Positions 1 through 6,590 of a stretch of 6,590 nucleotides of DNA are shown here, piece after piece. The stretch's first letter is position 1, and each line of letters opens with the position of its first letter. The stretch spans positions 1 through 6,590 of the forward strand of contig JALNXV010000207.1 in the NCBI GenBank assembly GCA_023230175.1, given 5' to 3'. The notes under the pieces are model-generated. The model saw only the letters and a program-made list of their open reading frames with translations, had not been told where the DNA came from and searched no databases. The position numbers and the translations under genes were made by a program. This stretch comes from Candidatus Cloacimonadota bacterium. Its GTDB lineage: Bacteria; Cloacimonadota; Cloacimonadia; Cloacimonadales; WRIO01.

Positions 1-1141
1 CATCATAGAGCATCTCCATTGACTCGTAGTCACCCTGACGTACAAGCTCGCGGGCCTCTGCAAGATCGGGCATTTCGTTTCTGGGAAGATTTTGTAATTG
101 GATCAAACGTCCTGCCCATCGCCCGGAACGGTTTGCCCCGTAAAATTGGAACATTCCTCTCGCTCTTCCGTCATCGCATACAGCATTAGCCATTGCCTGG
201 TATTTCTTCACAGAGCTTTTGGCTAGCTGTTGCCTTAGCTCCAGTACATCGCAGATACCATCGGGTGCATCCTTCATGAGGGCATCAACGGCTTTCTTTC
301 CAAGTGTATCTGTCTCGACTCCATTCTCTGAAAGCCAGGTCTTCATCTGGACCACGCTGTTTGGATTTTCAAGATCAGTCATGCCTTTCATCTGCTCCGA
401 GATGGTTCCCTTGGAGCGTTCGTCAAAGGCTATGGCGTTTTTTACAAGCTGCATGTCTATGCCGATACCCCTGTCGTTTATCTCTTGGTCCAGGTGGTAC
501 TCATCCCACACAAACTCAGGGACAGGGAAGTTTTTGAGCTTCTCCTTGATGGATAGCTCCACCTCGACATCTCGCTTGTTGTAGGCTTTGAAGGTCTCCC
601 ACTTGTCAGGTGCATGGAAGGGAAGGTTTCTTGTTCTTCCTCCATTCACCTTCGTTGGCTTGCAGGGAACACAGAAGTAGCGTATTAGGTCAGAGCCTTC
701 ACTCATCTTCTGCTCATCCAGCTTCAGCACCGCACCAATACCTTTGAGCGAAAGAGGAAGTCCCATGTAGGCACCCCAGACAAGTGAGCAGCGCCAGGAT
801 GAAGGGTCCAGATAGTCACCCACTGTATCTTCCTCGATGCTGTAGCTTCTGAAGTACTCTAGGTAGTTTCTTTTGAGCCACACAGACAGGAATACCCGTT
901 CGAAATTACTGTTATAGGCCCACTTGGTTACTCCGTTATCTGACAGGGCTTTTAATATATATTCCGGGATCTTTTCGCCTTGCGCCACATCGATGACTTC
1001 AACGGGGCCGTTGTCTATGGAGTATCCAAATAGTAGCAGATCTGCATTTGGAGAAGATGCATATCTGTAAACACCACATTTCTTCAAATCGATGTCACTG
1101 TAGGTTTCAATGTCGATAGACAAAGTGTTCATTTGAGCCAT
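1..1141 (-). CDS. Phage family A DNA polymerase, N-terminal part (3' end beyond the left edge)
   Basis: The 380 visible residues begin with a DnaQ-like 3'-5' exonuclease domain and reach the start of the PolA-type polymerase domain. Visible motifs are Exo I with D10 and E12 (SIDIETYSD), an Exo II-like site N77-x2-F80-E81, and Exo III Y187-x3-D191. Residues 334-352 carry the family A signature GANRSGRWAGRLIQLQNLP, which precedes palm motif A; motifs A, B and C lie outside the window. The role is template-directed phage genome synthesis with proofreading. I chose the ATG at 1141-1139 (MAQMNTLS) because a GGAGG sits 8 nt upstream (1154-1150). The alternative in-frame ATG at 1132-1130 would have that site 17 nt away. 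The start overlaps the end of the HNH gene by 13 nt, which suggests translational coupling. Exo II has Glu where DnaQ proteins usually have Asp, possibly a trait of this phage family. The family call is firm; the exact start is likely. Confidence 0.95.
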   Translation of the reverse strand, partial: MAQMNTLSIDIETYSDIDLKKCGVYRYASSPNADLLLFGYSIDNGPVEVIDVAQGEKIPEYILKALSDNGVTKWAYNSNFERVFLSVWLKRNYLEYFRSYSIEEDTVGDYLDPSSWRCSLVWGAYMGLPLSLKGIGAVLKLDEQKMSEGSDLIRYFCVPCKPTKVNGGRTRNLPFHAPDKWETFKAYNKRDVEVELSIKEKLKNFPVPEFVWDEYHLDQEINDRGIGIDMQLVKNAIAFDERSKGTISEQMKGMTDLENPNSVVQMKTWLSENGVETDTLGKKAVDALMKDAPDGICDVLELRQQLAKSSVKKYQAMANAVCDDGRARGMFQFYGANRSGRWAGRLIQLQNLPRNEMPDLAEARELVRQGDYESMEMLYD

Positions 1142-1647
1142 TCGTATCGCCTCCAATTCTTGATATCCTTAATTGTTGTCGGGTTAACATCGTACAGTGT
1201 TGCAAGTTCCTGATTGGAATACCCACAATAAATACCGAAGCGTATAGCCTCTACATCATCTATGGTTAGCTTTCGCCATGCTTTTCCTTGGTAATATACA
1301 TCCAGTATGTTTTCTTTCTGTGTTCCATAACGCAGATTTTCCGGACGGTTGTCTGTCGGGTCGCCATTGCAGTGCAAAACATAAAGATCTTCATTCTCGG
1401 GCAAGCCTAAGAAGGCCATAGCAACAGCCCTATGAACACCAATATTGTGAGTATCTTTACCAAGTGAAACACCCAAATGTCCACCTACGTCTCGGATATG
1501 CTGCTTGAGAATTTTTTCCTTAACATACCTTTGTCCACGGGCTGTTCGTACATATTTACCCAGACTTTTTATTCTGCCCATGTTGCTTGCTTGATATTTT
1601 CCCTCATAGCCAGGAATGTCCTTCCAGATTTCTTCTGAGTTTTTCAT
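1129..1647 (-). CDS. NUMOD4-HNH endonuclease with C-terminal helix-turn-helix (homing-type)
   Basis: The protein has 172 residues. Residues 5-30 (EIWKDIPGYEGKYQASNMGRI) are a NUMOD4 motif, a DNA-contacting module typical of free-standing phage homing endonucleases. Residues 70-113 form an HNH_3-type nuclease core, with H72 in VHRAVAMAF, H92 in LHCNGDP and N100/N104 in DNRPENL. Residues 126-168 look like a resolvase-type helix-turn-helix (KLTIDDVEAIR, then YSNQELATLYDVNPTTI). The expected activity is site- or motif-directed DNA nicking or cleavage. The start at 1647 has AAGGAG about 7 nt upstream; the open frame extends further upstream to 1797, but that part overlaps the previous gene and has no such site. 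The gene ends 13 nt inside the DNA polymerase gene. It is more AT-rich than its neighbours (about 40 % GC in sampled lines), consistent with separate acquisition. Activity itself is inferred. Confidence 0.92.
   Translation of the reverse strand: MKNSEEIWKDIPGYEGKYQASNMGRIKSLGKYVRTARGQRYVKEKILKQHIRDVGGHLGVSLGKDTHNIGVHRAVAMAFLGLPENEDLYVLHCNGDPTDNRPENLRYGTQKENILDVYYQGKAWRKLTIDDVEAIRFGIYCGYSNQELATLYDVNPTTIKDIKNWRRYEWLK
1150..1154 (-). promoter_or_regulatory. Shine-Dalgarno site that decides the DNA polymerase start
   Basis: GGAGG on the minus strand lies inside the 3' end of the HNH gene, 8 nt before the ATG at 1141-1139. This spacing favours the MAQMNTLS start over the internal ATG at 1132-1130, which forms an ATGA overlap with the HNH stop codon but is too far from the site. 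Confidence 0.7.
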
Positions 1648-1671
1648 GTATTTACTCCTTCGATATAAGAA

Positions 1672-1695
1672 GGCGGTGGCTTCTGTTCCACCGCC
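1672..1695 (-). terminator. Perfect 8-bp hairpin upstream of the HNH gene, possible weak terminator
   Basis: GGCGGTGG (1672-1679) and CCACCGCC (1688-1695) pair perfectly around an 8-nt loop. In the minus-strand transcript the hairpin lies 5 nt after the stop codon of the membrane-protein gene, and TTCTTATAT follows it. That tract is only moderately U-rich, so it may be a weak terminator, an mRNA-stabilising stem, or a left-over of the insertion that brought the HNH gene. It lies just before the HNH ribosome binding site. Confidence 0.45.
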
Positions 1696-1700
1696 ATATG

Positions 1701-1865
1701 TCACTGTTGTCTTGTTGCAAGTGAAGCAATCCAGTGGTATAGCTTCCTTGTCATCTTCACCAGGAAAGAGAAGATGTTGTATATACTGAATCCGCATAGG
1801 ACAAGCGATACACCCAGGAGCGTGCCTCTTATGAGAGAGTCGATGATTGCATTAATCAAATCCAT
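1701..1865 (-). CDS. Small predicted single-pass membrane protein (54 aa)
   Basis: I do not recognise this protein. It starts MDLINAIIDSL and has one long hydrophobic stretch at about residues 14-36 (GTLLGVSLVLCGFSIYNIF and onward), followed directly by basic residues K37, R40 and K41. By the positive-inside rule its C-terminus would face the cytoplasm. The start at 1865 lies 14 nt after the stop of the preceding 117-aa gene. The ribosome binding site is weak: an AAGAAG-like stretch 8-10 nt upstream, or a GGAG about 16 nt away that overlaps the previous stop codon. A longer reading from 1949 would overlap the upstream gene and adds a basic, non-membrane segment, so I did not use it. Small membrane proteins in phage early regions sometimes affect host division or superinfection, but nothing here shows which, if any, applies. 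Confidence 0.6.
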   Translation of the reverse strand: MDLINAIIDSLIRGTLLGVSLVLCGFSIYNIFSFLVKMTRKLYHWIASLATRQQ

Positions 1866-1879
1866 TGAATCAATTCTTC

Positions 1880-2233
1880 TTACTCCAGGTCTTCCGGGTT
1901 GATGGCGATGTATGAAGAATCGAGCGGATTGATGGAAGACTTCACCCATACACCGTTCTGGTCGCCCGAGCGTCTGTTCTTCACATAGCGGTAGAAGCAG
2001 GTTGTAGTTGCATAGGCTTCTTCCCGTGGTTCATGGAATATCTGTTCCAGGAGTCTTTCCTCCGGAGTCTTGCCGTCATTGCCATAACGTCTTGGCAGCA
2101 TGCTTCCTTTTTTGAAGAATCGCATGATGCCATACCTTCTTTCCGTGTCTGTTTCTTCGCACACGAACAGGTCGATGTCTTCTGGCGGTTCTTGCTTGGT
2201 GAAAGGTGTCAGGTGTTCAAGAATGTTTGTCAT
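1880..2233 (-). CDS. Hypothetical phage protein (117 aa)
   Basis: I do not recognise a family. The protein starts MTNILEHLTPF. It has a basic aromatic stretch (RRYGIMRFFKKG, residues 32-43; LPRRYGNDGKTPEERL, 46-61), a central TTTCFYRYVKNRRSG (76-90) and an acidic C-terminus (NPEDLE). There are no membrane segments and no obvious catalytic motif. The mix of basic and aromatic residues would suit a small nucleic-acid or protein-binding fold, which is only a guess. The start at 2233 follows GGAGG by 5 nt. An upstream in-frame ATG at 2248-2246 overlaps the TGA of the previous gene in an ATGA arrangement, but that reading contains the ribosome binding site itself, so I rejected it. It sits in the leftward operon between two other unknown genes. 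Confidence 0.7.
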   Translation of the reverse strand: MTNILEHLTPFTKQEPPEDIDLFVCEETDTERRYGIMRFFKKGSMLPRRYGNDGKTPEERLLEQIFHEPREEAYATTTCFYRYVKNRRSGDQNGVWVKSSINPLDSSYIAINPEDLE

Positions 2234-2244
2234 TGGTTCCTCCT

Positions 2245-2745
2245 TCATAACTCGTAGTCGATGCAGCTAAGTGAAGAAAGCTGCCTTCCGTGTTCATCAG
2301 TAAATGGTTTGATGCACTGGCAGTTGAATGCTAGATGCTCTACGAAGTACTGGAGCTTTCTTTTCTGTGTGCGGACCATGTCTTCTGTGGCATCTGAGCA
2401 CATCGCCATTTCCAGATCTTCATTCACCTTGCAGACTTCATTGATCATTTGAAGAATGTCTATGAGCACTTCAGTCTCATCGCAGTTTTTCACGATATCG
2501 ACAATATCTATCTCATCCACAATGCGTGTCGTTATCCTGTTCATATGGCAATAGAGACGTGCTGCATCTATGCCGGTCAATGAAATGTCATCTTCTTCGG
2601 CTATATCTTTTACGATGATGGCTCCACGTACAATGCAGAGGCATTTTCTGTAGTTGAGAAGATCATTGATAATGTCCTGATAATCTTCGCTCATGTGTTC
2701 GTCGTTAAGAAACATGACAGGGTTTAAAAGTTTGATTGTTTCCAT
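2245..2745 (-). CDS. Acidic, cysteine-rich hypothetical phage protein (166 aa)
   Basis: I do not recognise a family. The protein starts METIKLLNPVMF; an AAGGAGG site lies 8 nt before the ATG at 2745, which rules out the longer upstream reading from 2775. By hand count it has about 33 Asp/Glu against 16 Lys/Arg, so it is strongly acidic, and nine Cys spread through the chain without a clear zinc-finger spacing. It looks mostly helical, with amphipathic stretches such as VDEIDIVDIVKN and VLIDILQMINEVCKV. No signal peptide, membrane segment or catalytic motif is evident. A strongly acidic small protein from a phage replication region could be a DNA mimic or an inhibitor of a host factor, but this is speculation. 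It opens the sub-block that follows the hairpin-bearing gap after DUF2815. Confidence 0.72.
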   Translation of the reverse strand: METIKLLNPVMFLNDEHMSEDYQDIINDLLNYRKCLCIVRGAIIVKDIAEEDDISLTGIDAARLYCHMNRITTRIVDEIDIVDIVKNCDETEVLIDILQMINEVCKVNEDLEMAMCSDATEDMVRTQKRKLQYFVEHLAFNCQCIKPFTDEHGRQLSSLSCIDYEL

Positions 2746-2788
2746 AGTGTTTTCCTCCTTGGTGTGTATGTTCAAAGCAATTCTCCAT

Positions 2789-2812
2789 CCCCCGGCTTTT
2801 TGGGCCGGAGGG
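2789..2812 (-). other. GC-rich intergenic hairpin between the DUF2815 and 166-aa genes
   Basis: CCGGC (2792-2796) pairs with GCCGG (2804-2808), and CCC (2789-2791) pairs with GGG (2810-2812) across a bulged A. The loop is 7 nt. It lies in the 93-bp gap after the DUF2815 stop codon. In the minus-strand RNA no U-run follows, so it is not a clean rho-independent terminator. It could act as an mRNA 3'-end stabiliser or processing site that separates expression of the SSB/nuclease genes from the accessory genes downstream. Confidence 0.5.
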
Positions 2813-2838
2813 GAGAGTGCCTTATGAGTGTTTTTCCC

Positions 2839-3402
2839 TTAGTTCAGGAAGTCCTCGTCATCGTCGGTGTCGAAGTCATCCTCGGCCCTGGACTTGCCTC
2901 CAAGAGGCTCACCATCACGGATCTTCTGAAGGTTGTTGAGCCCGCATGCAATACCTCTGTTGCCGTTTGAGTTGAATGCGTAGAAGTTGATGGATGCACG
3001 GCCATAGACGCCGGAATACACTTCACTTGTATCAAGGATAGGCTGGCGGTCAGCATCGACGATACCAGGAGCTGTTGCACTGTTTGCGTTGATGAACCAG
3101 CAGCCCTTGTAGGCTTCATCGCCCGGGCGCTCCTTGTCTCCATCGCGGAGCGGAGTCTTGATGGCATCAAGTGCAGGCACGAACTTGCCGTTGCCCTTGA
3201 GTTTTGATTCGCCTTCCTCATAGGCTGCCTTGATTGCTGCCCTGATCTTCTCCACGGTCACAGTATCCGACTTGGGAATGATGAGGGAGATGCTGTACTT
3301 AGGTGCACCTCCGTTGATGGACTTGGCCTGCCATACATTTGCGTAGGACCAACGTGTGTTTACACCTGTGATAACTTTAGTAGGGTTCTGAAACTTTGAC
3401 AT
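2839..3402 (-). CDS. DUF2815 family protein, predicted phage ssDNA-binding protein
   Basis: The protein has 187 residues and matches DUF2815 from its start (MSKFQNPTKVITGVNTRWSY) through KYSISLIIPK, the GKFVPALDAIKTPLRDGD segment, GCWFINANS and YGRASINFYAFNSNGNRGIACGLNNLQKIRDGEPLGG (about residues 132-168). This family is thought to have an OB-fold related to T7 gp2.5-like ssDNA-binding proteins. The C-terminus (EDDFDTDDDEDFLN) is a very acidic tail of the sort that phage and bacterial SSBs use to recruit partner proteins. The role would be coating ssDNA in replication and recombination. The start at 3402 follows GGAGG by 10 nt and lies 2 nt after the stop of the DUF2800 gene, so the two are almost certainly co-translated. 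The family call is strong; the SSB function rests on family knowledge and the tail. Confidence 0.9.
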   Translation of the reverse strand: MSKFQNPTKVITGVNTRWSYANVWQAKSINGGAPKYSISLIIPKSDTVTVEKIRAAIKAAYEEGESKLKGNGKFVPALDAIKTPLRDGDKERPGDEAYKGCWFINANSATAPGIVDADRQPILDTSEVYSGVYGRASINFYAFNSNGNRGIACGLNNLQKIRDGEPLGGKSRAEDDFDTDDDEDFLN

Positions 3403-3404
3403 AA

Positions 3405-4544
3405 TTACTTTTCCTCCATATCTGTTTTGTCATTAAAATCTTCTGCCGCAGTATTGATTGCCGGACGCTTGTCCGACTCCGGTACAAGGGCAGGTTTTCC
3501 AGGCGGCTTATAGACCAAGCTGCCTAATAGTTCTTCAAACTTCTTCTTTCCAAGAAGTGAGCTCATGGCCGTGATGCCAAGGAGCTTCTTTTCATAGGGG
3601 TCATACCCGGCATCGGTTACTGTCTTTGCGACTTTTTCCTCATCCGTGTACTTGCGGTTGCTTTTTCCTTCCACGACCTTGAAGCCCTCGTAGTGGGTTC
3701 CGCTCTGCGCCTTAGAGAGGGCATAGTCCTTGAGGTCATTGCCCCATGCAATCAGCTGGTCGATACGCGGAAGGATTGCTGCAATCTCAATCTCGTCCAG
3801 GGTGTCGGGCATCGCAAAGTCGTACCTGGCCATCTCAAGATTGTGCTCTGCACGTTTGCGGCATATCGCCTTGGCCTTGCAGAACTGGCAATGGTCACCG
3901 GCTTTGAATTCACCCTTACCCTCATAGGCGAGTGCTGCAGTAGGGGCAAGCACCATGTCGGCCCAGTCCAGAAGGTCCTTCCTCTTCAGCCTGCAGGTAC
4001 TGACGTTGTCCCTGCGTGGCTGGAATATGGTCATGGACACTTCCTCGATGTCGTAGATTCCGTCAAAGGCCTCCAGGGCACCAAGTGCATAGCACATCAT
4101 CTGACTGTTGCCTTCAGCCTCAACCAGGACGCCAAGGCCATGCTTGTAATCGATGATCTGCAGGACCTGGTCGGCAACGATGATGCAGTCGCCGGTTCCA
4201 AAGCCATTCTCTACCCATCTGGAGAAGTCAAGCCTCTGTTCGATGAACACCATCGGGTCGGCGCAGTACTTCTTTGCCGCCTCGAGCTGTTCCAATACAT
4301 AGGCGCAATACTCCTCGGCGCAGTTTTGCATCTCAGCGCTGTAATAGCTAAGGTGCTCTCTTGGGTCCGCGACGTCTTTGCCTAGTGCCTTCTCAACCAG
4401 GTAGGCACAGAGCTCGTGGCAATCCGTTCCTTCCTGTGCATAGGGCGATGGCTCATCCGGCATGCCTTCGCAAAGCTTTGCGGATGGCGGGCAATTGAGC
4501 CAGCGATGGGAAGCGGATGCGGAAAGGAATGCGTGATTAGCCAT
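3405..4544 (-). CDS. DUF2800 family protein, Cas4/AddB-like PD-(D/E)XK nuclease with Fe-S cluster
   Basis: The protein has 379 residues, a normal full length for DUF2800. The PD-(D/E)XK nuclease motifs of the RecB/Cas4 group are readable in order: E38-G-T-x2-H43 (AQEGTDCHEL), D119 in GTGDCII, D132-Y-K134 in IIDYKHG, and Q148-x3-Y152. Cysteines C18 (WLNCP) and C219-x2-C222-x5-C228 (HCQFCKAKAICRKR) match the split four-Cys arrangement that holds a 4Fe-4S cluster in Cas4 and AddB. The expected role is exonucleolytic processing of DNA ends for phage recombination or repair, in the cytoplasm together with the adjacent ssDNA-binding protein. The ATG at 4544 overlaps the end of the upstream gene by 8 nt, indicating translational coupling. 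All motif residues are present, so it should be active. The exact substrate is unknown. Confidence 0.92.
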   Translation of the reverse strand: MANHAFLSASASHRWLNCPPSAKLCEGMPDEPSPYAQEGTDCHELCAYLVEKALGKDVADPREHLSYYSAEMQNCAEEYCAYVLEQLEAAKKYCADPMVFIEQRLDFSRWVENGFGTGDCIIVADQVLQIIDYKHGLGVLVEAEGNSQMMCYALGALEAFDGIYDIEEVSMTIFQPRRDNVSTCRLKRKDLLDWADMVLAPTAALAYEGKGEFKAGDHCQFCKAKAICRKRAEHNLEMARYDFAMPDTLDEIEIAAILPRIDQLIAWGNDLKDYALSKAQSGTHYEGFKVVEGKSNRKYTDEEKVAKTVTDAGYDPYEKKLLGITAMSSLLGKKKFEELLGSLVYKPPGKPALVPESDKRPAINTAAEDFNDKTDMEEK

Positions 4545-4941
4545 TGGCGATCACCTGTGCCTCATGCACAAGAGCTGCATAGTCTTCTTCCTTTACATCG
4601 CTAAGGCGCTTTGCACCGAACTTCTCAAGCAGGGCTCTGGCTTCCGCCTTCTTTCCCTGTCCAGAAAGTCCGGCCATGATGCCGCGTACATCGGTGAAGG
4701 AGTAGGTCCTGGCTTCTTCCTTCGGTGCTTCCTTCTTATCAGGAGTCCTGTCAGGCAGCGGTTTTGCTTCTAGCTTTTCTGTTGTTGCCACAGAATTTTC
4801 GCTAAACAGAGCCTTGAGCTCCTTTACTGCGTTCAGGATGATTTCCGCGGTGCTGGCTGTCTTCTTATAGGAAGCGACCAGTTCCTCACCGGCTTCGATG
4901 ATCTCATCCAGGGTCATCGAATAGTCTTTAGTCTTGCTCAC
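4537..4941 (-). CDS. Small phage 'rrp5-like' protein (134 aa, GTG start)
   Basis: Proteins of this type are often labelled 'rRNA biogenesis protein rrp5' in phage genomes, almost certainly a mislabel. The N-terminal part (about 10-50, LDEIIEAGEELVASYKKTASTAEIILNAVKELKALF) is helical and may form a coiled coil. A charged Pro/Lys/Glu linker follows (about 51-78). A conserved C-terminal domain lies at 79-132 (TYSFTDVRGIMAGLSGQGKK, then ALLEKFGAKRLSDVKEEDYAAL), with the pattern of a small helical, SAP-like or lid-like fold. The GTG at 4941 has AAGGAGG 9 nt upstream, whereas the in-frame ATG at 4917-4915 has no comparable site, and the open frame extending to 5253 runs through the non-coding region. 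It overlaps the genes on both sides (14 nt and 8 nt). In related phages it sits next to DUF2800/DUF2815, so a role as an accessory subunit in recombination or replication is plausible. Confidence 0.85.
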   Translation of the reverse strand: MSKTKDYSMTLDEIIEAGEELVASYKKTASTAEIILNAVKELKALFSENSVATTEKLEAKPLPDRTPDKKEAPKEEARTYSFTDVRGIMAGLSGQGKKAEARALLEKFGAKRLSDVKEEDYAALVHEAQVIANG

Positions 4942-5077
4942 TTGGGTTTTCCTCCTTTGTCTTTTGGCTGAGCTTTTTCGCCAGTCTCTTGGCGACCACA
5001 CTGATGGCGATGAGCGTATCGATGAGCTCCTCGTCCGTTCTGTCAGGTGGGGTTGCTTGTTCTTGTGAAATCTGCAT
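4928..5077 (-). CDS. Small hypothetical protein (49 aa), first gene of the leftward operon
   Basis: Reading the minus strand from the ATG at 5077-5075 gives MQISQEQATPPDRTDEELID, continuing TLIAISVVAKRLAKKLSQKT and ending KEENPSEQD before a TAA at 4930-4928. A GAGG lies 6 nt before the ATG. The reading frame overlaps the GTG start of the next gene by 14 nt and carries that gene's AAGGAGG, the same coupled arrangement seen elsewhere in this operon. The centre (about 15-41) would be an amphipathic basic helix. I recognise no family. Position, ribosome binding site and overlap support a real gene. It stands about 39 bp downstream of the leftward bipartite element R1. Confidence 0.68.
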   Translation of the reverse strand: MQISQEQATPPDRTDEELIDTLIAISVVAKRLAKKLSQKTKEENPSEQD

Positions 5078-5116
5078 CTTGTACCTCGCTTTCCGGATGG
5101 CGTCTTGCCTTCCTGA

Positions 5117-5150
5117 CTATCTCTGGACAGTGGGCTTTCAAAATCACGGA
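5117..5150 (-). promoter_or_regulatory. Bipartite element R1, pointing left, proximal to the leftward operon
   Basis: Read on the minus strand: TCCGTG (5150-5145), 15 nt, then TGTCCAGAGA (5129-5120) extended by TAG. It ends about 39 bp before the ATG of the 49-aa gene at 5077. It shares 27 of 34 positions with R2, including everything from CACTGTCCAGAGATAG, and the period between R1 and R2 is exactly 82 bp. Distance and orientation fit a promoter with unusual -35-like and -10-like boxes, or an activator/repressor site next to one. Confidence 0.6.
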
Positions 5151-5198
5151 ACTTTTTTGAATTTCTTTTTCCGGTGGTTCTTAGCGCTCCCTGCCTAT

Positions 5199-5232
5199 CT
5201 ATCTCTGGACAGTGCAAAGGCAAAACCACGGA
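5199..5232 (-). promoter_or_regulatory. Bipartite element R2, pointing left, distal copy
   Basis: Minus strand: TCCGTG (5232-5227), 15 nt, TGTCCAGAGA (5211-5202), extended by TAG. It is a near repeat of R1 displaced by 82 bp; the spacer is the same length but partly different in sequence, so the two boxes look selected rather than just duplicated. It abuts the T-run of the leftward terminator at 5234. Confidence 0.58.
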
Positions 5233-5233
5233 G

Positions 5234-5264
5234 AAAAAAACCTCCGCAGCCAAAGCCGCAGAGG
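5234..5264 (-). terminator. Leftward rho-independent terminator
   Basis: On the minus strand, an imperfect stem from 5264 to 5241 (outer CCTC/GAGG, inner GC-rich pairs, two mismatches) is followed by seven T residues (5240-5234). The layout is that of an intrinsic terminator for RNA moving left. It would stop antisense or read-through RNA from the primase side just before element R2, insulating the leftward arm. It could instead act on a leader RNA started farther right. Confidence 0.55.
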
Positions 5265-5306
5265 AAAATCAAAATTTATAAGGAAGTAAAAATTCTTTTC
5301 TGTTTT

Positions 5307-5340
5307 TCCGTGAAATCCCATCGCCGTTGTCCAGAGAAAG
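5307..5340 (+). promoter_or_regulatory. Bipartite element R3, pointing right, towards the primase operon
   Basis: Plus strand: TCCGTG (5307-5312), 15 nt, TGTCCAGAGA (5328-5337), then AAG. This is the same bipartite pattern as R1 and R2 with the same 15-nt gap, in the opposite orientation, and the spacer is largely unrelated in sequence. It ends 47 bp before the ATG at 5388. The mirrored placement relative to R1 suggests that both arms respond to the same factor. Confidence 0.58.
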
Positions 5341-5344
5341 TTAG

Positions 5345-5361
5345 AAGGACCTAGCGTCCTT
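5345..5361 (+). promoter_or_regulatory. Small hairpin/palindrome in the leader of the rightward operon
   Basis: AAGGAC (5345-5350) and GTCCTT (5356-5361) form a perfect 6-bp stem with a 5-nt loop, followed by ACTTTTC. It sits between element R3 and the ribosome binding site of the first rightward gene. As DNA it could be a repressor operator; as RNA it could be a leader stem or weak attenuator. The stem is short and the T-run is broken, so I do not call it a terminator. Confidence 0.4.
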
Positions 5362-5387
5362 ACTTTTCAACGAAAGGAGAACGACCG

Positions 5388-5795
5388 ATGGGTGATTTAT
5401 TTAAGAACCAGGAAGGTTACGCTGACCCGACTGCCGGAGCCGCGATGAGAGAGGTCATCAAGGAAGCACGCAAGTGGAGACCGCTCGTGTATATCTGCAG
5501 TCCGTACTCAGGTGATCCGCCTGGCAATACAAAGAAAGCCATCCTGTACAGCCGCTTCGCTGTGGACCAGGGTGCAATCCCGTTGGCACCGCACCTGTTG
5601 CTTCCTCTTTATATGGATGAAAGCACAGAACGGGAGCTTGCGATGTTTATGGACATGGTTTTCTTAGGCCACTGCGAAGAGATGTGGGTCTTCGGTTCGA
5701 AGTGGAGCGAGGGCATGCAGACAGAAATCGCAAAGGCCAAGAAGCGAAGCATCAAGATTCGACATTTTACGGAAGATTGCAAGGAGGAAAGCTAG
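5388..5795 (+). CDS. DUF4406/DUF7768-type protein with nucleoside 2-deoxyribosyltransferase-like fold
   Basis: The protein has 135 residues. Conserved segments are VYICSPYSG (34-42), an NTKKAILYSRFAV stretch (47-59), IPLAPHLLLPLYMD (64-77), FLGHCEEMWVFG (92-103) and SEGMQTEIAKAKK (107-119). The order and spacing resemble the small nucleoside 2-deoxyribosyltransferase-like proteins found beside primase genes in Firmicutes phages and integrative elements; E113 in the S-x-G-x3-E motif corresponds to the usual catalytic Glu position. It may bind or remodel nucleotides or deoxyribosides, but its true substrate is unknown. The ATG at 5388 has AAAGGAG 8 nt upstream. The next gene starts immediately after its stop codon, and the AAGGAGG for that gene lies inside this one, so the pair is co-translated. 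Confidence 0.85.
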   Translation: MGDLFKNQEGYADPTAGAAMREVIKEARKWRPLVYICSPYSGDPPGNTKKAILYSRFAVDQGAIPLAPHLLLPLYMDESTERELAMFMDMVFLGHCEEMWVFGSKWSEGMQTEIAKAKKRSIKIRHFTEDCKEES

Positions 5796-6590
5796 ATGCA
5801 GATTACATTATTTACCGCAAACTGCACCGGCGTGAAGACCAACTGCATCTACCCCAACAAGGTAGTGGCAGAGAGTAAAGCTGAGATGGTGGAGGCCATC
5901 AAGCGCGATCACGTCTGCGCAAAATACACCAACAACTATAGAAGCAATGACAACTTCGAGGAAGCGGTCGGCATTTTCATGGATAACGACAACGATCATT
6001 CCGAGAATCCTGCGGACTGGCTGACTGCGGAAAAGCTCAGTGAGCTGCTTTGCGATGTGGATCATGTGATTGCTCCAAGCCGCCACAACATGCTCCCGAA
6101 GGACAACAAGGCGGCCAGACCTCGTCAGCACATCTATTTCCCGACTTCTGTTTTTACAGATAGAAAGAAGTACGAGGAGCTCAAGGCGGCCATCCAGAGA
6201 ATGTATCCGTTCTTTGATGACAACGCCAAGGATGCTGCCAGGTTCTTCTTCGGTTCTGCCTGCAGCGAGGACGAGCTGATCTGGAATGAAGGCTGGATGA
6301 CCATTGATGAAGCAGTGGATGAAGAGGCTCTGGTTCCAAACAGTGATGAAGACGAGGACTTCTGTGCACCGGCTTCCTCCGGCCCGATTCTGGAGGGCAG
6401 CCGCAACAACACCATGAGCCACTTCGCCGGAAGAATCCTCAAAAAGCTGGGTGTCTGCGATAAGGCCAAAGAGGCATATCAGGAACGTGCCCGGAAGTGT
6501 GAGCCGCCATTATCCGAGGAGGAGCTTGAAACCATTTGGAACAGTGCAGTCAAGTTCTATGAGAAGGTTGCTTCCCAGGAAGGCTATATT
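5796..6590 (+). CDS. Phage primase (archaeo-eukaryotic-type) with PriCT-like domain, N-terminal part, continues beyond the right edge
   Basis: The frame is open for 265 codons to the window edge. It begins MQITLFTANCTGVKTNCIYP. Motifs of the archaeo-eukaryotic primase fold are readable: D63-x-D65 in IFMDNDNDH (metal-binding motif I), H112 in RPRQHIYFP (the s-x-H nucleotide-binding motif), and D146 in AKDAARFFFGS (motif III-like). Residues about 200-258 (GSRNNTMSHFAGRILKKLG, then LSEEELETIWNSAVKFYEKV) fit the PriCT_1 domain. In phages and plasmids this arrangement usually continues into a VapE/P4-type superfamily 3 or D5-like helicase, so a primase-helicase is expected but not visible here. 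Its role is to start, and perhaps drive, phage DNA synthesis together with the divergently encoded polymerase. The start has GGAGG 8 nt upstream and directly follows the TAG of the preceding gene. An acidic linker lies at about 171-189. Confidence 0.88.
   Translation, partial: MQITLFTANCTGVKTNCIYPNKVVAESKAEMVEAIKRDHVCAKYTNNYRSNDNFEEAVGIFMDNDNDHSENPADWLTAEKLSELLCDVDHVIAPSRHNMLPKDNKAARPRQHIYFPTSVFTDRKKYEELKAAIQRMYPFFDDNAKDAARFFFGSACSEDELIWNEGWMTIDEAVDEEALVPNSDEDEDFCAPASSGPILEGSRNNTMSHFAGRILKKLGVCDKAKEAYQERARKCEPPLSEEELETIWNSAVKFYEKVASQEGYI

Follow-up and report, generated by a model that had tools for sequence, protein, structure and literature searches.

Bipartite promoter-like elements in the replication module of a Candidatus Heliusviridae-type phage and a candidate sigma-like regulator that covaries with them

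Introduction

Phage 7-11, of the phiEco32 group, encodes a sigma factor, SaPh711_gp47, that reads promoters of the form GTAAtg-(16)-aCTA (available sections of PMC8948821). Few temperate gut phages are as widespread as Candidatus (Ca.) Heliusviridae, which 190 of 196 participants carried in their bulk phage populations; their signature genes include DUF2800, DUF2815 and DNA polymerase, the other six being VRR-NUC, SNF2 helicase, terminase, portal, protease and capsid (available sections of PMC9226167). This report concerns a stretch of 6,590 nucleotides (nt) from an assembly of a Candidatus Cloacimonadota bacterium (contig JALNXV010000207.1, positions 1 to 6,590), referred to as the window, which on its gene content is a phage replication module with two divergent gene arms. 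Between the arms lie three copies of a bipartite element, TCCGTG-N15-TGTCCAGAGA.

The word ‘promoter’ does not occur in the accessible main text of PMC9226167, and ‘sigma’ occurs once. No description of such a regulon, or of how Ca. Heliusviridae are switched on, was found in the accessible portions of the literature searched, which included PMC4260502, PMC9429907, PMC13123087, PMC8948821, PMC9226167 and PMC13432834 and covered few subscription papers or preprints.

Results

The element comprises a 6-nt A box and a 10-nt B box separated by 15 nt. Exact matches are present at 5120..5150 on the minus strand (left-arm proximal; A box 5150-5145, B box 5129-5120), at 5202..5232 on the minus strand (left-arm distal) and at 5307..5337 on the plus strand (right arm). 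Each copy faces the operon downstream of it, two serving the left arm and one the right, and the two minus-strand copies are separated by 82 bp. The three exact copies, their fixed gap and their gene-facing orientation, all described in the first-pass annotation, thus held up, and exceeded what shuffling produced; the distances of 39 and 47 nt given there are corrected to 42 nt (from the proximal left element to the start at 5077) and 50 nt (from the right element to the ATG at 5388). Allowing up to three mismatches revealed no further copies in the window, and 200 dinucleotide shuffles of the window gave a mean of 0.09 matches and a maximum of 2. When positions 5078-5387 were shuffled in the same way 1000 times, the top gapped word of the form 6+N15+10 occurred once in 993 shuffles, twice in seven and never three times.

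No relative with the window's own boxes was found by searching, the nearest being copies of a TCCGTCC class at three mismatches, and blastn of the divergent region against phages returned no match. An exact search of IMG/VR gave four matches on four other contigs, which is near the estimated chance level, and these were not used.

The architecture was examined in relatives by a comparison that is indifferent to box sequence. Protein searches, two against IMG/VR and one against GTDB genomes, yielded 193 loci; removal of identical loci left 122 divergent regions, the window included, of which 120 were long enough for testing. An ungapped 22-position template (boxes of 8 and 14 positions, spacer disregarded) was compared within each region, and pairs occupying the same place were omitted to keep terminator palindromes out of the counts. 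This replaced a first pair search, in which 97 of 120 regions exceeded the best of 30 shuffles and palindromic terminators had been included. Among the 88 regions of at most 600 bp, a score of 19/22 was reached on opposite strands in 76 and on the left strand in 53, compared with 0/88 in both cases for a control of one shuffle per region. Fourteen of the 120 regions fell below 18/22 and two (L153 and L169) were left out as doubtful, leaving 104 for clustering, spacing and counts of -10 boxes. Two left copies with one right copy were found in 59 of these, one with one in 40, and three with one in five. Measured from the end of a 35-nt frame, the median distance to the anchor gene was 45 nt for the left-proximal copy (n = 80) and 48 nt for the right copy (taken over the 88 of the 104 regions in which this distance is under 150 nt). 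The gap between left copies elsewhere had a median of 80.5 bp (n = 48; 26 within 76-84 bp), and that of the window is 82 bp.

The sequences of the boxes are lineage-specific, and the architecture alone is conserved. Conservation across homologous divergent regions, the lack of which the first-pass annotation had named among the results that would speak against its proposal, was thus borne out for topology and spacing, but not for the boxes themselves, which differ between lineages. Classes include TCCGTCC/TGTCCTTAGG (Anaerocolumna and others), GNGGAAAA/TACTTAGTA (Streptococcus) and, as examples among other relatives, CCGGAATT/CCCTTAG, GACCGGAAAA/CGCTTAGG, ATCGGAAAA/TACCTAGACC, CCGCTGAAA/TGTCCTTTCA, CCGCCCAAA/TGTCCATNGG, TTCGTTCAAA/TGTCCTGGGAC and GTTATAAAAA/GCAGGCATGGGA. 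Single-linkage clustering of the 104 regions gave 21 clusters, of which 13 are singletons, the window being one of these; the number is rough, as classes that clearly look different are joined in the two largest clusters and the singletons L007, L121 and L135 are poor or shifted extractions. The boxes of the window are nearest to the TCCGTCC and CCGCCC classes (17/22). In most classes a purine-rich third block (e.g. GTTAGAAAGG), seen by eye, lies several nt past the B box of many elements, near the predicted transcription start.

The orientation of the elements, their distance from start codons and their fixed spacing are promoter-like, and the elements are therefore read as promoters. A sigma-70-type promoter was sought in 4900-5450 and none was found, in agreement with the earlier remark that sigma-A promoters are not obvious between the arms. 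Across the 104 regions, sigma-A -10-like boxes occurred downstream of 3 of 241 elements, against 20.9 expected from dinucleotide shuffles, and upstream of 27 of 240, against 57.2 expected; the expectations from simple shuffles (50.4 and 106.5) were judged too generous and the dinucleotide figures are preferred. Downstream and upstream alike, the -10-like box was the rarest of 20 permuted hexamers. Because both boxes vary between lineages, a host sigma factor is an unlikely reader of either.

A reader encoded by the phages was sought in an unbiased scan, in which the similarity of gene families within 10 kb was correlated with motif similarity. The best DNA-binding-like family was a protein of about 190-260 residues (partial rho 0.42, 36 loci); at these loci its gene is mostly found immediately beyond that of the polymerase, on the other strand. 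Higher values were obtained for a C5 DNA methylase (0.52, 28 loci; Pfam) and for a large protein (0.44, 21 loci) that often adjoins the candidate regulator gene; both were set aside on annotation and position alone.

The C-terminus of the candidate regulator matches the extracytoplasmic function (ECF) sigma-70 family TIGR02937 in nine of 20 members scanned (best 1.3e-9), with none of the 20 reaching the cut-off of 42.9 bits (best 37.9 bits, L029). Some regulators match phage sigma families, and NCBI names a 91%-identical relative (P0028) as sigma-70 family. Weak C-terminal matches to the BacL2 family (NF041508; 0.0014-0.0077, and 0.069 for L029) are far below its curated cut-off of 200 bits. 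By sequence similarity the protein carries a region 4 DNA-binding domain of the ECF/sigma-70 type. Region 2, which binds core polymerase and melts the -10 element, was also sought in the regulator and none was recognised; a PDB search with the N-terminal domain returned no listed family, which does not show a new fold. The sigma-like regulator gene that the first-pass annotation had suggested looking for is therefore represented by a gene with a sigma region 4 domain that covaries with the boxes.

When 36 further genomes or records were searched with a profile of the regulator, 27 gave a match. Thirteen matches were verified on the same contig as the locus, roughly 8-22 kb past the polymerase gene; the best matches in G013 and G019 read like host ECF sigma factors, and L207, L222 and L223 were left out as their contig differs from that of the locus. 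At L020, L088, L104, L107, L122 and L151, beyond 13 kb, kilobase-scale cargo lies past the polymerase gene, with large open reading frames (ORFs) resembling restriction-modification or defence genes. The loci L143, L150, L156, L158-L160 and L163 have no divergent arrangement, and several of them have a homologue of the regulator about 1 kb upstream of DUF2800. Three relatives (L132, L133 and L147) are in genomes titled Gammaproteobacteria or genera thereof, and one of them, L133, shows this element architecture with boxes of its own and carries a regulator. By analogy with relatives of divergent arrangement, the regulator gene of the window phage is predicted to lie past the polymerase gene, beyond the window edge.

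Covariation was quantified at 49 nonredundant loci, after eight of 81 loci with a regulator proved to have no usable motif and L153 and L162 had been left out; these 49 loci represent 19 motif classes. Regulator similarity correlated with motif similarity at 0.55 (p 0.001), compared with 0.37 for DUF2800, 0.37 for ssb, 0.30 for the polymerase, 0.23 for DUF7768 and 0.19 for SNF2; primase similarity tracked the motif weakly (rho 0.14, p 0.07). Two small left-arm ORF families came closer: a 126-residue family gave 0.56 (n = 35) against 0.73 for the regulator on the same pairs, and a 49-residue ORF gave 0.46 (n = 15) against 0.55. The p values of these Mantel correlations are not strict probabilities, because the loci share ancestry.

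Stronger evidence comes from near-isogenic comparisons and from the recognition helix. There are 110 pairs of loci with nearly identical replication genes. Wherever regulator similarity was at least 0.5 the motif was kept (≥22/27; 52 of 52 pairs), and all 31 pairs in which the motif had switched (≤17/27), representing at least six switch events, had regulator similarity below 0.25; two pairs were intermediate. The motif was still kept in 16 of the 48 near-isogenic pairs with diverged regulators (<0.25), and in these exceptions both regulators were always of one recognition-helix class. Across all 1083 pairs with diverged regulators, each of the 26 that share a motif has at least 4/9 helix residues in common, and sharing occurred in none of the 935 pairs with three or fewer. 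In such pairs, helix identity correlated with the A box (rho 0.34, permutation p 0.0005). The pairings of helix and box, as judged by eye, are KST with TCCGTCC, RRTLRD with CCGCCC, QRTVSD with CCGCT, QSS/QST with TCGTT, and GKGK/KSQGY/KTQAY with CCGGAA. Since the boxes of the window are closest to the TCCGTCC class, a KST-type helix is predicted for its regulator.

Two other ideas were rejected. A modular reading, in which the N-terminus specifies the B box and the C-terminus the A box, was unsupported: the partial correlations were 0.04 (N-terminus with B box) and 0.37 (C-terminus with A box), but 0.52 for the C-terminus with the B box. A RinA/ArpU-like regulator had also been proposed in the first-pass annotation; the phrog_36-type gene after the SNF2 helicase, which we take to be of the kind named DUF1492 and ArpU, does not track the motif (rho 0.06, p 0.18), near-identical proteins accompanying quite different motifs. 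In the same slot, at L198 (20796-21284) and elsewhere, the gene is swapped among unrelated helix-turn-helix regulators and is a candidate late regulator.

The search for copies away from the two arms, termed distant copies here, used lineage patterns (≤2 mismatches) and covered 46 genomes or records from six classes together with L198 and Javan49. The genome of Anaerocolumna sedimenticola contains two modules of the TCCGTCC class. The pattern was matched in 45 of the 46, the exception being the record of L075, and reversed-pattern controls gave no matches except one in G046 and three each in G052 and G053. A distant copy was present in 25 of the 48 genomes or records, many of the remainder being fragments: 9/12 of the TCCGTCC class, 2/9 of GACCGGAAAA, 4/7 of ATCGGAAAA, 1/4 of CCGCTGAAA, 4/6 of the Streptococcus class, 4/8 of GTTATAAAAA, and L198. 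Javan49 has none in its record, which begins at the polymerase gene and lists no recombinase. Downstream genes were inspected for 28 of the 32 distant matches (L243-L253 and L254-L270), the other four having two mismatches each (two in G021, one in G052 and one in G053). Serine-recombinase ORFs lie downstream of 26 of the 28, with the first listed ORF at 23-131 nt, and all five recombinases tested have Resolvase and Recombinase Pfam domains. Several of these phages are closely related, so the distant copies are not independent, and their link to the arms of the same phage holds for those on one contig or record, some being on different contigs. In many relatives, then, the site set also includes a recombinase operon beyond the two replication arms, and the further copies ahead of operons anticipated in the first-pass annotation were found.

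At L256 (G017, the contig of L118) a distant copy lies 249 nt ahead of the regulator gene itself, which suggests autoregulation in one lineage. At L254 (G006, contig C18) a copy of the GACCGGAAAA class with two mismatches lies 11 nt ahead of a Tn916-type excisionase (PF09035) and a 425-residue ORF, elsewhere in the host genome, as though a different mobile element shared this promoter code. The first serine recombinase past the copy at L247 is split into two ORFs (one Anaerocolumna sedimenticola prophage), and at L262 (Streptococcus suis) an ORF beyond the recombinase genes, up to 1079 on the minus strand, presumably resembles ribosomal-protection tetracycline resistance proteins.

The genes of the window itself are as follows. 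The left arm, on the minus strand, begins with a 49-residue ORF (4928..5077), homologues of which occupy the same place at many loci, and a 126-residue ORF (4537..4917) that is homologous to a variable protein, the counterparts of which in L198 and L199 match phrog_408 (unknown function). These are followed by a DUF2800 protein resembling PD-(D/E)XK nucleases (3405..4544; PF10926 9.3e-162, PF12705 1.4e-9), a single-stranded DNA-binding protein of the Enc34/DUF2815 family (2839..3402; PF10991 1.9e-77), two minus-strand ORFs without a Pfam match, a NUMOD4-HNH endonuclease identified by Pfam (1129-1656), an insertion next to the polymerase gene, and a DNA polymerase truncated at its C-terminus by the window edge (2..1156), which has no Pfam match and aligns to annotated phage DNA polymerases. 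Homologues of the endonuclease are found near the polymerase in several relatives, e.g. L031, L042, L044 and L050. The right arm, on the plus strand, comprises a DUF7768 gene (5388..5795; PF24963 3.5e-37) and the N-terminal part of a putative primase/helicase (5796..6590), cut by the window edge. The latter has no Pfam match and is placed by its homologue, which occupies the position of an annotated DNA helicase in PV036455 and of a DNA primase/helicase in Javan49.

Discussion

These observations suggest that the elements are probably -35/-10-like promoters in a phage of the Ca. Heliusviridae type, and that their predicted reader is a phage protein with sigma region 4. The regulator would bind both boxes of the element, its region 4 domain reading the A box, and the B box would act as a -10-like element with transcription starting just past it. 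Acting as a sigma factor and not as an activator, the regulator would direct host RNA polymerase to the excision and replication genes together, presumably at induction, when the recombinases would excise the phage. The first-pass annotation had proposed that both arms are switched on either from promoters for a phage sigma factor or through sites for a phage activator; the conserved topology and spacing, the extra copies before operons and the covarying gene all favour that proposal. More tentatively, and leaning slightly against it, we raise a bolder possibility: that the regulator is a new type of sigma factor, comprising region 4 and an unknown N-terminal domain, which alone reads both boxes and is the master induction switch for excision and replication. 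Regulator-element pairs would then be swapped between phages, giving about 20 orthogonal codes and preventing cross-induction of co-resident prophages.

Two features of the regulator would fit a rival reading: no region 2 was recognised in it, and its sigma resemblance is confined to the C-terminal half. It could be an activator with a sigma-region-4-like domain that recruits host sigma-A holoenzyme to promoters lacking a canonical -10 box, in the manner of RinA/Ltr but for early genes. Known phage Ltr activators are indeed small DNA-binding proteins that switch on phage operons, but their sites are three to four repeats upstream of a sigma-A TATA box (available sections of PMC13123087), whereas the elements here are lone bipartite units around which -10-like boxes are depleted. 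Both boxes also change by lineage, which host sigma-A is unlikely to follow. An activator is the less likely reading, although it is the best of the alternatives.

The first-pass annotation had ranked repressor operators and origin iterons as less likely, and the orientation and start-codon distances of the elements bear this out. Operators of a lysogeny repressor that silences both arms and the recombinase operon would equally be expected to be common to three operons and, with divergent repressors, to diverge fast into lineage-specific boxes. The strict gene-facing orientation, the narrow range of distances to start codons and the fixed box spacing argue otherwise, as does the sigma-like character of the covarying protein; no dyad symmetry was seen by eye, and a sigma-A promoter that a repressor might block was not found. 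This explanation is very improbable.

Slightly less credible still are RNA sites where the two early transcripts begin, either antitermination signals of the nut/put kind or leader structures. A single site in each of two divergent early operons is reminiscent of nutL/nutR in lambda, and the predicted right-arm leader contains a small hairpin (5345..5361, plus strand; AAGGAC-CTAGC-GTCCTT), which was read from the sequence and appears in the computed fold. The two elements that were folded, however, did no better than shuffles (z 0.9 and 0.2), and it is a protein with a sigma-4 domain that covaries. A terminator-like hairpin (5241..5264, minus strand; 10 pairs, 7 GC, T7; -18.6 kcal/mol, z -3.5) has a T tract that stops one base short of the distal left element, and because this tract abuts the element a promoter could not fit in between. 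The idea that a replication initiator binds the elements as origin iterons, suggested by two to four copies within a replication module, can be dismissed almost entirely, as more copies lie far off ahead of recombinase genes, orientation and start-codon distance follow the genes, and primase similarity shows only a weak relation to the motif.

The results suggest a regulon of three operons, provide a named candidate for its regulator and offer a naturally occurring set of regulator/promoter pairs. Such a set can be used to match sigma-type recognition helices with promoter boxes, and makes the control of induction directly testable. If the N-terminal domain truly replaces region 2, it would represent a new way of building a sigma factor.

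Among known proteins, the regulators resemble ECF sigma factors (TIGR02937) in the fold and sequence similarity of region 4, and differ from them in scoring below the family cut-off and in having no recognised region 2. An A/T-rich stretch past the A box in many classes, and the -35/-10-like spacing, are also ECF features. BacL2 is a plasmid-borne positive regulator with a sigma-like C-terminus; it differs in not being a phage induction regulator, and the match to it is far below cut-off.

The window shares DUF2800, DUF2815 and DNA polymerase, found together in it, with Ca. Heliusviridae (available sections of PMC9226167), and L198 (PV036455.1) carries the label Ca. Heliusvirales. RinA, Ltr and ArpU are small phage-encoded DNA-binding activators of operons, and the phrog_36/DUF1492-type gene here looks to be of that kind; they act on late genes through three to four repeats upstream of a sigma-A promoter (available sections of PMC13123087), whereas the elements described here are one to three bipartite units per arm, with no sigma-A promoter, ahead of replication genes. 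The likeness to the phage 7-11/phiEco32 system lies in a phage sigma factor that reads a bipartite promoter with 16 nt between its boxes, and in sigma factors that have diverged (15% identity to phi32_gp36) and have different consensus sequences at similar genome positions. Those are late-gene promoters, proven in vitro (available sections of PMC8948821), whereas the promoters predicted here would serve replication and recombinase genes of recombinase-carrying phages, through a regulator with no recognised region 2 and in roughly 20 box classes.
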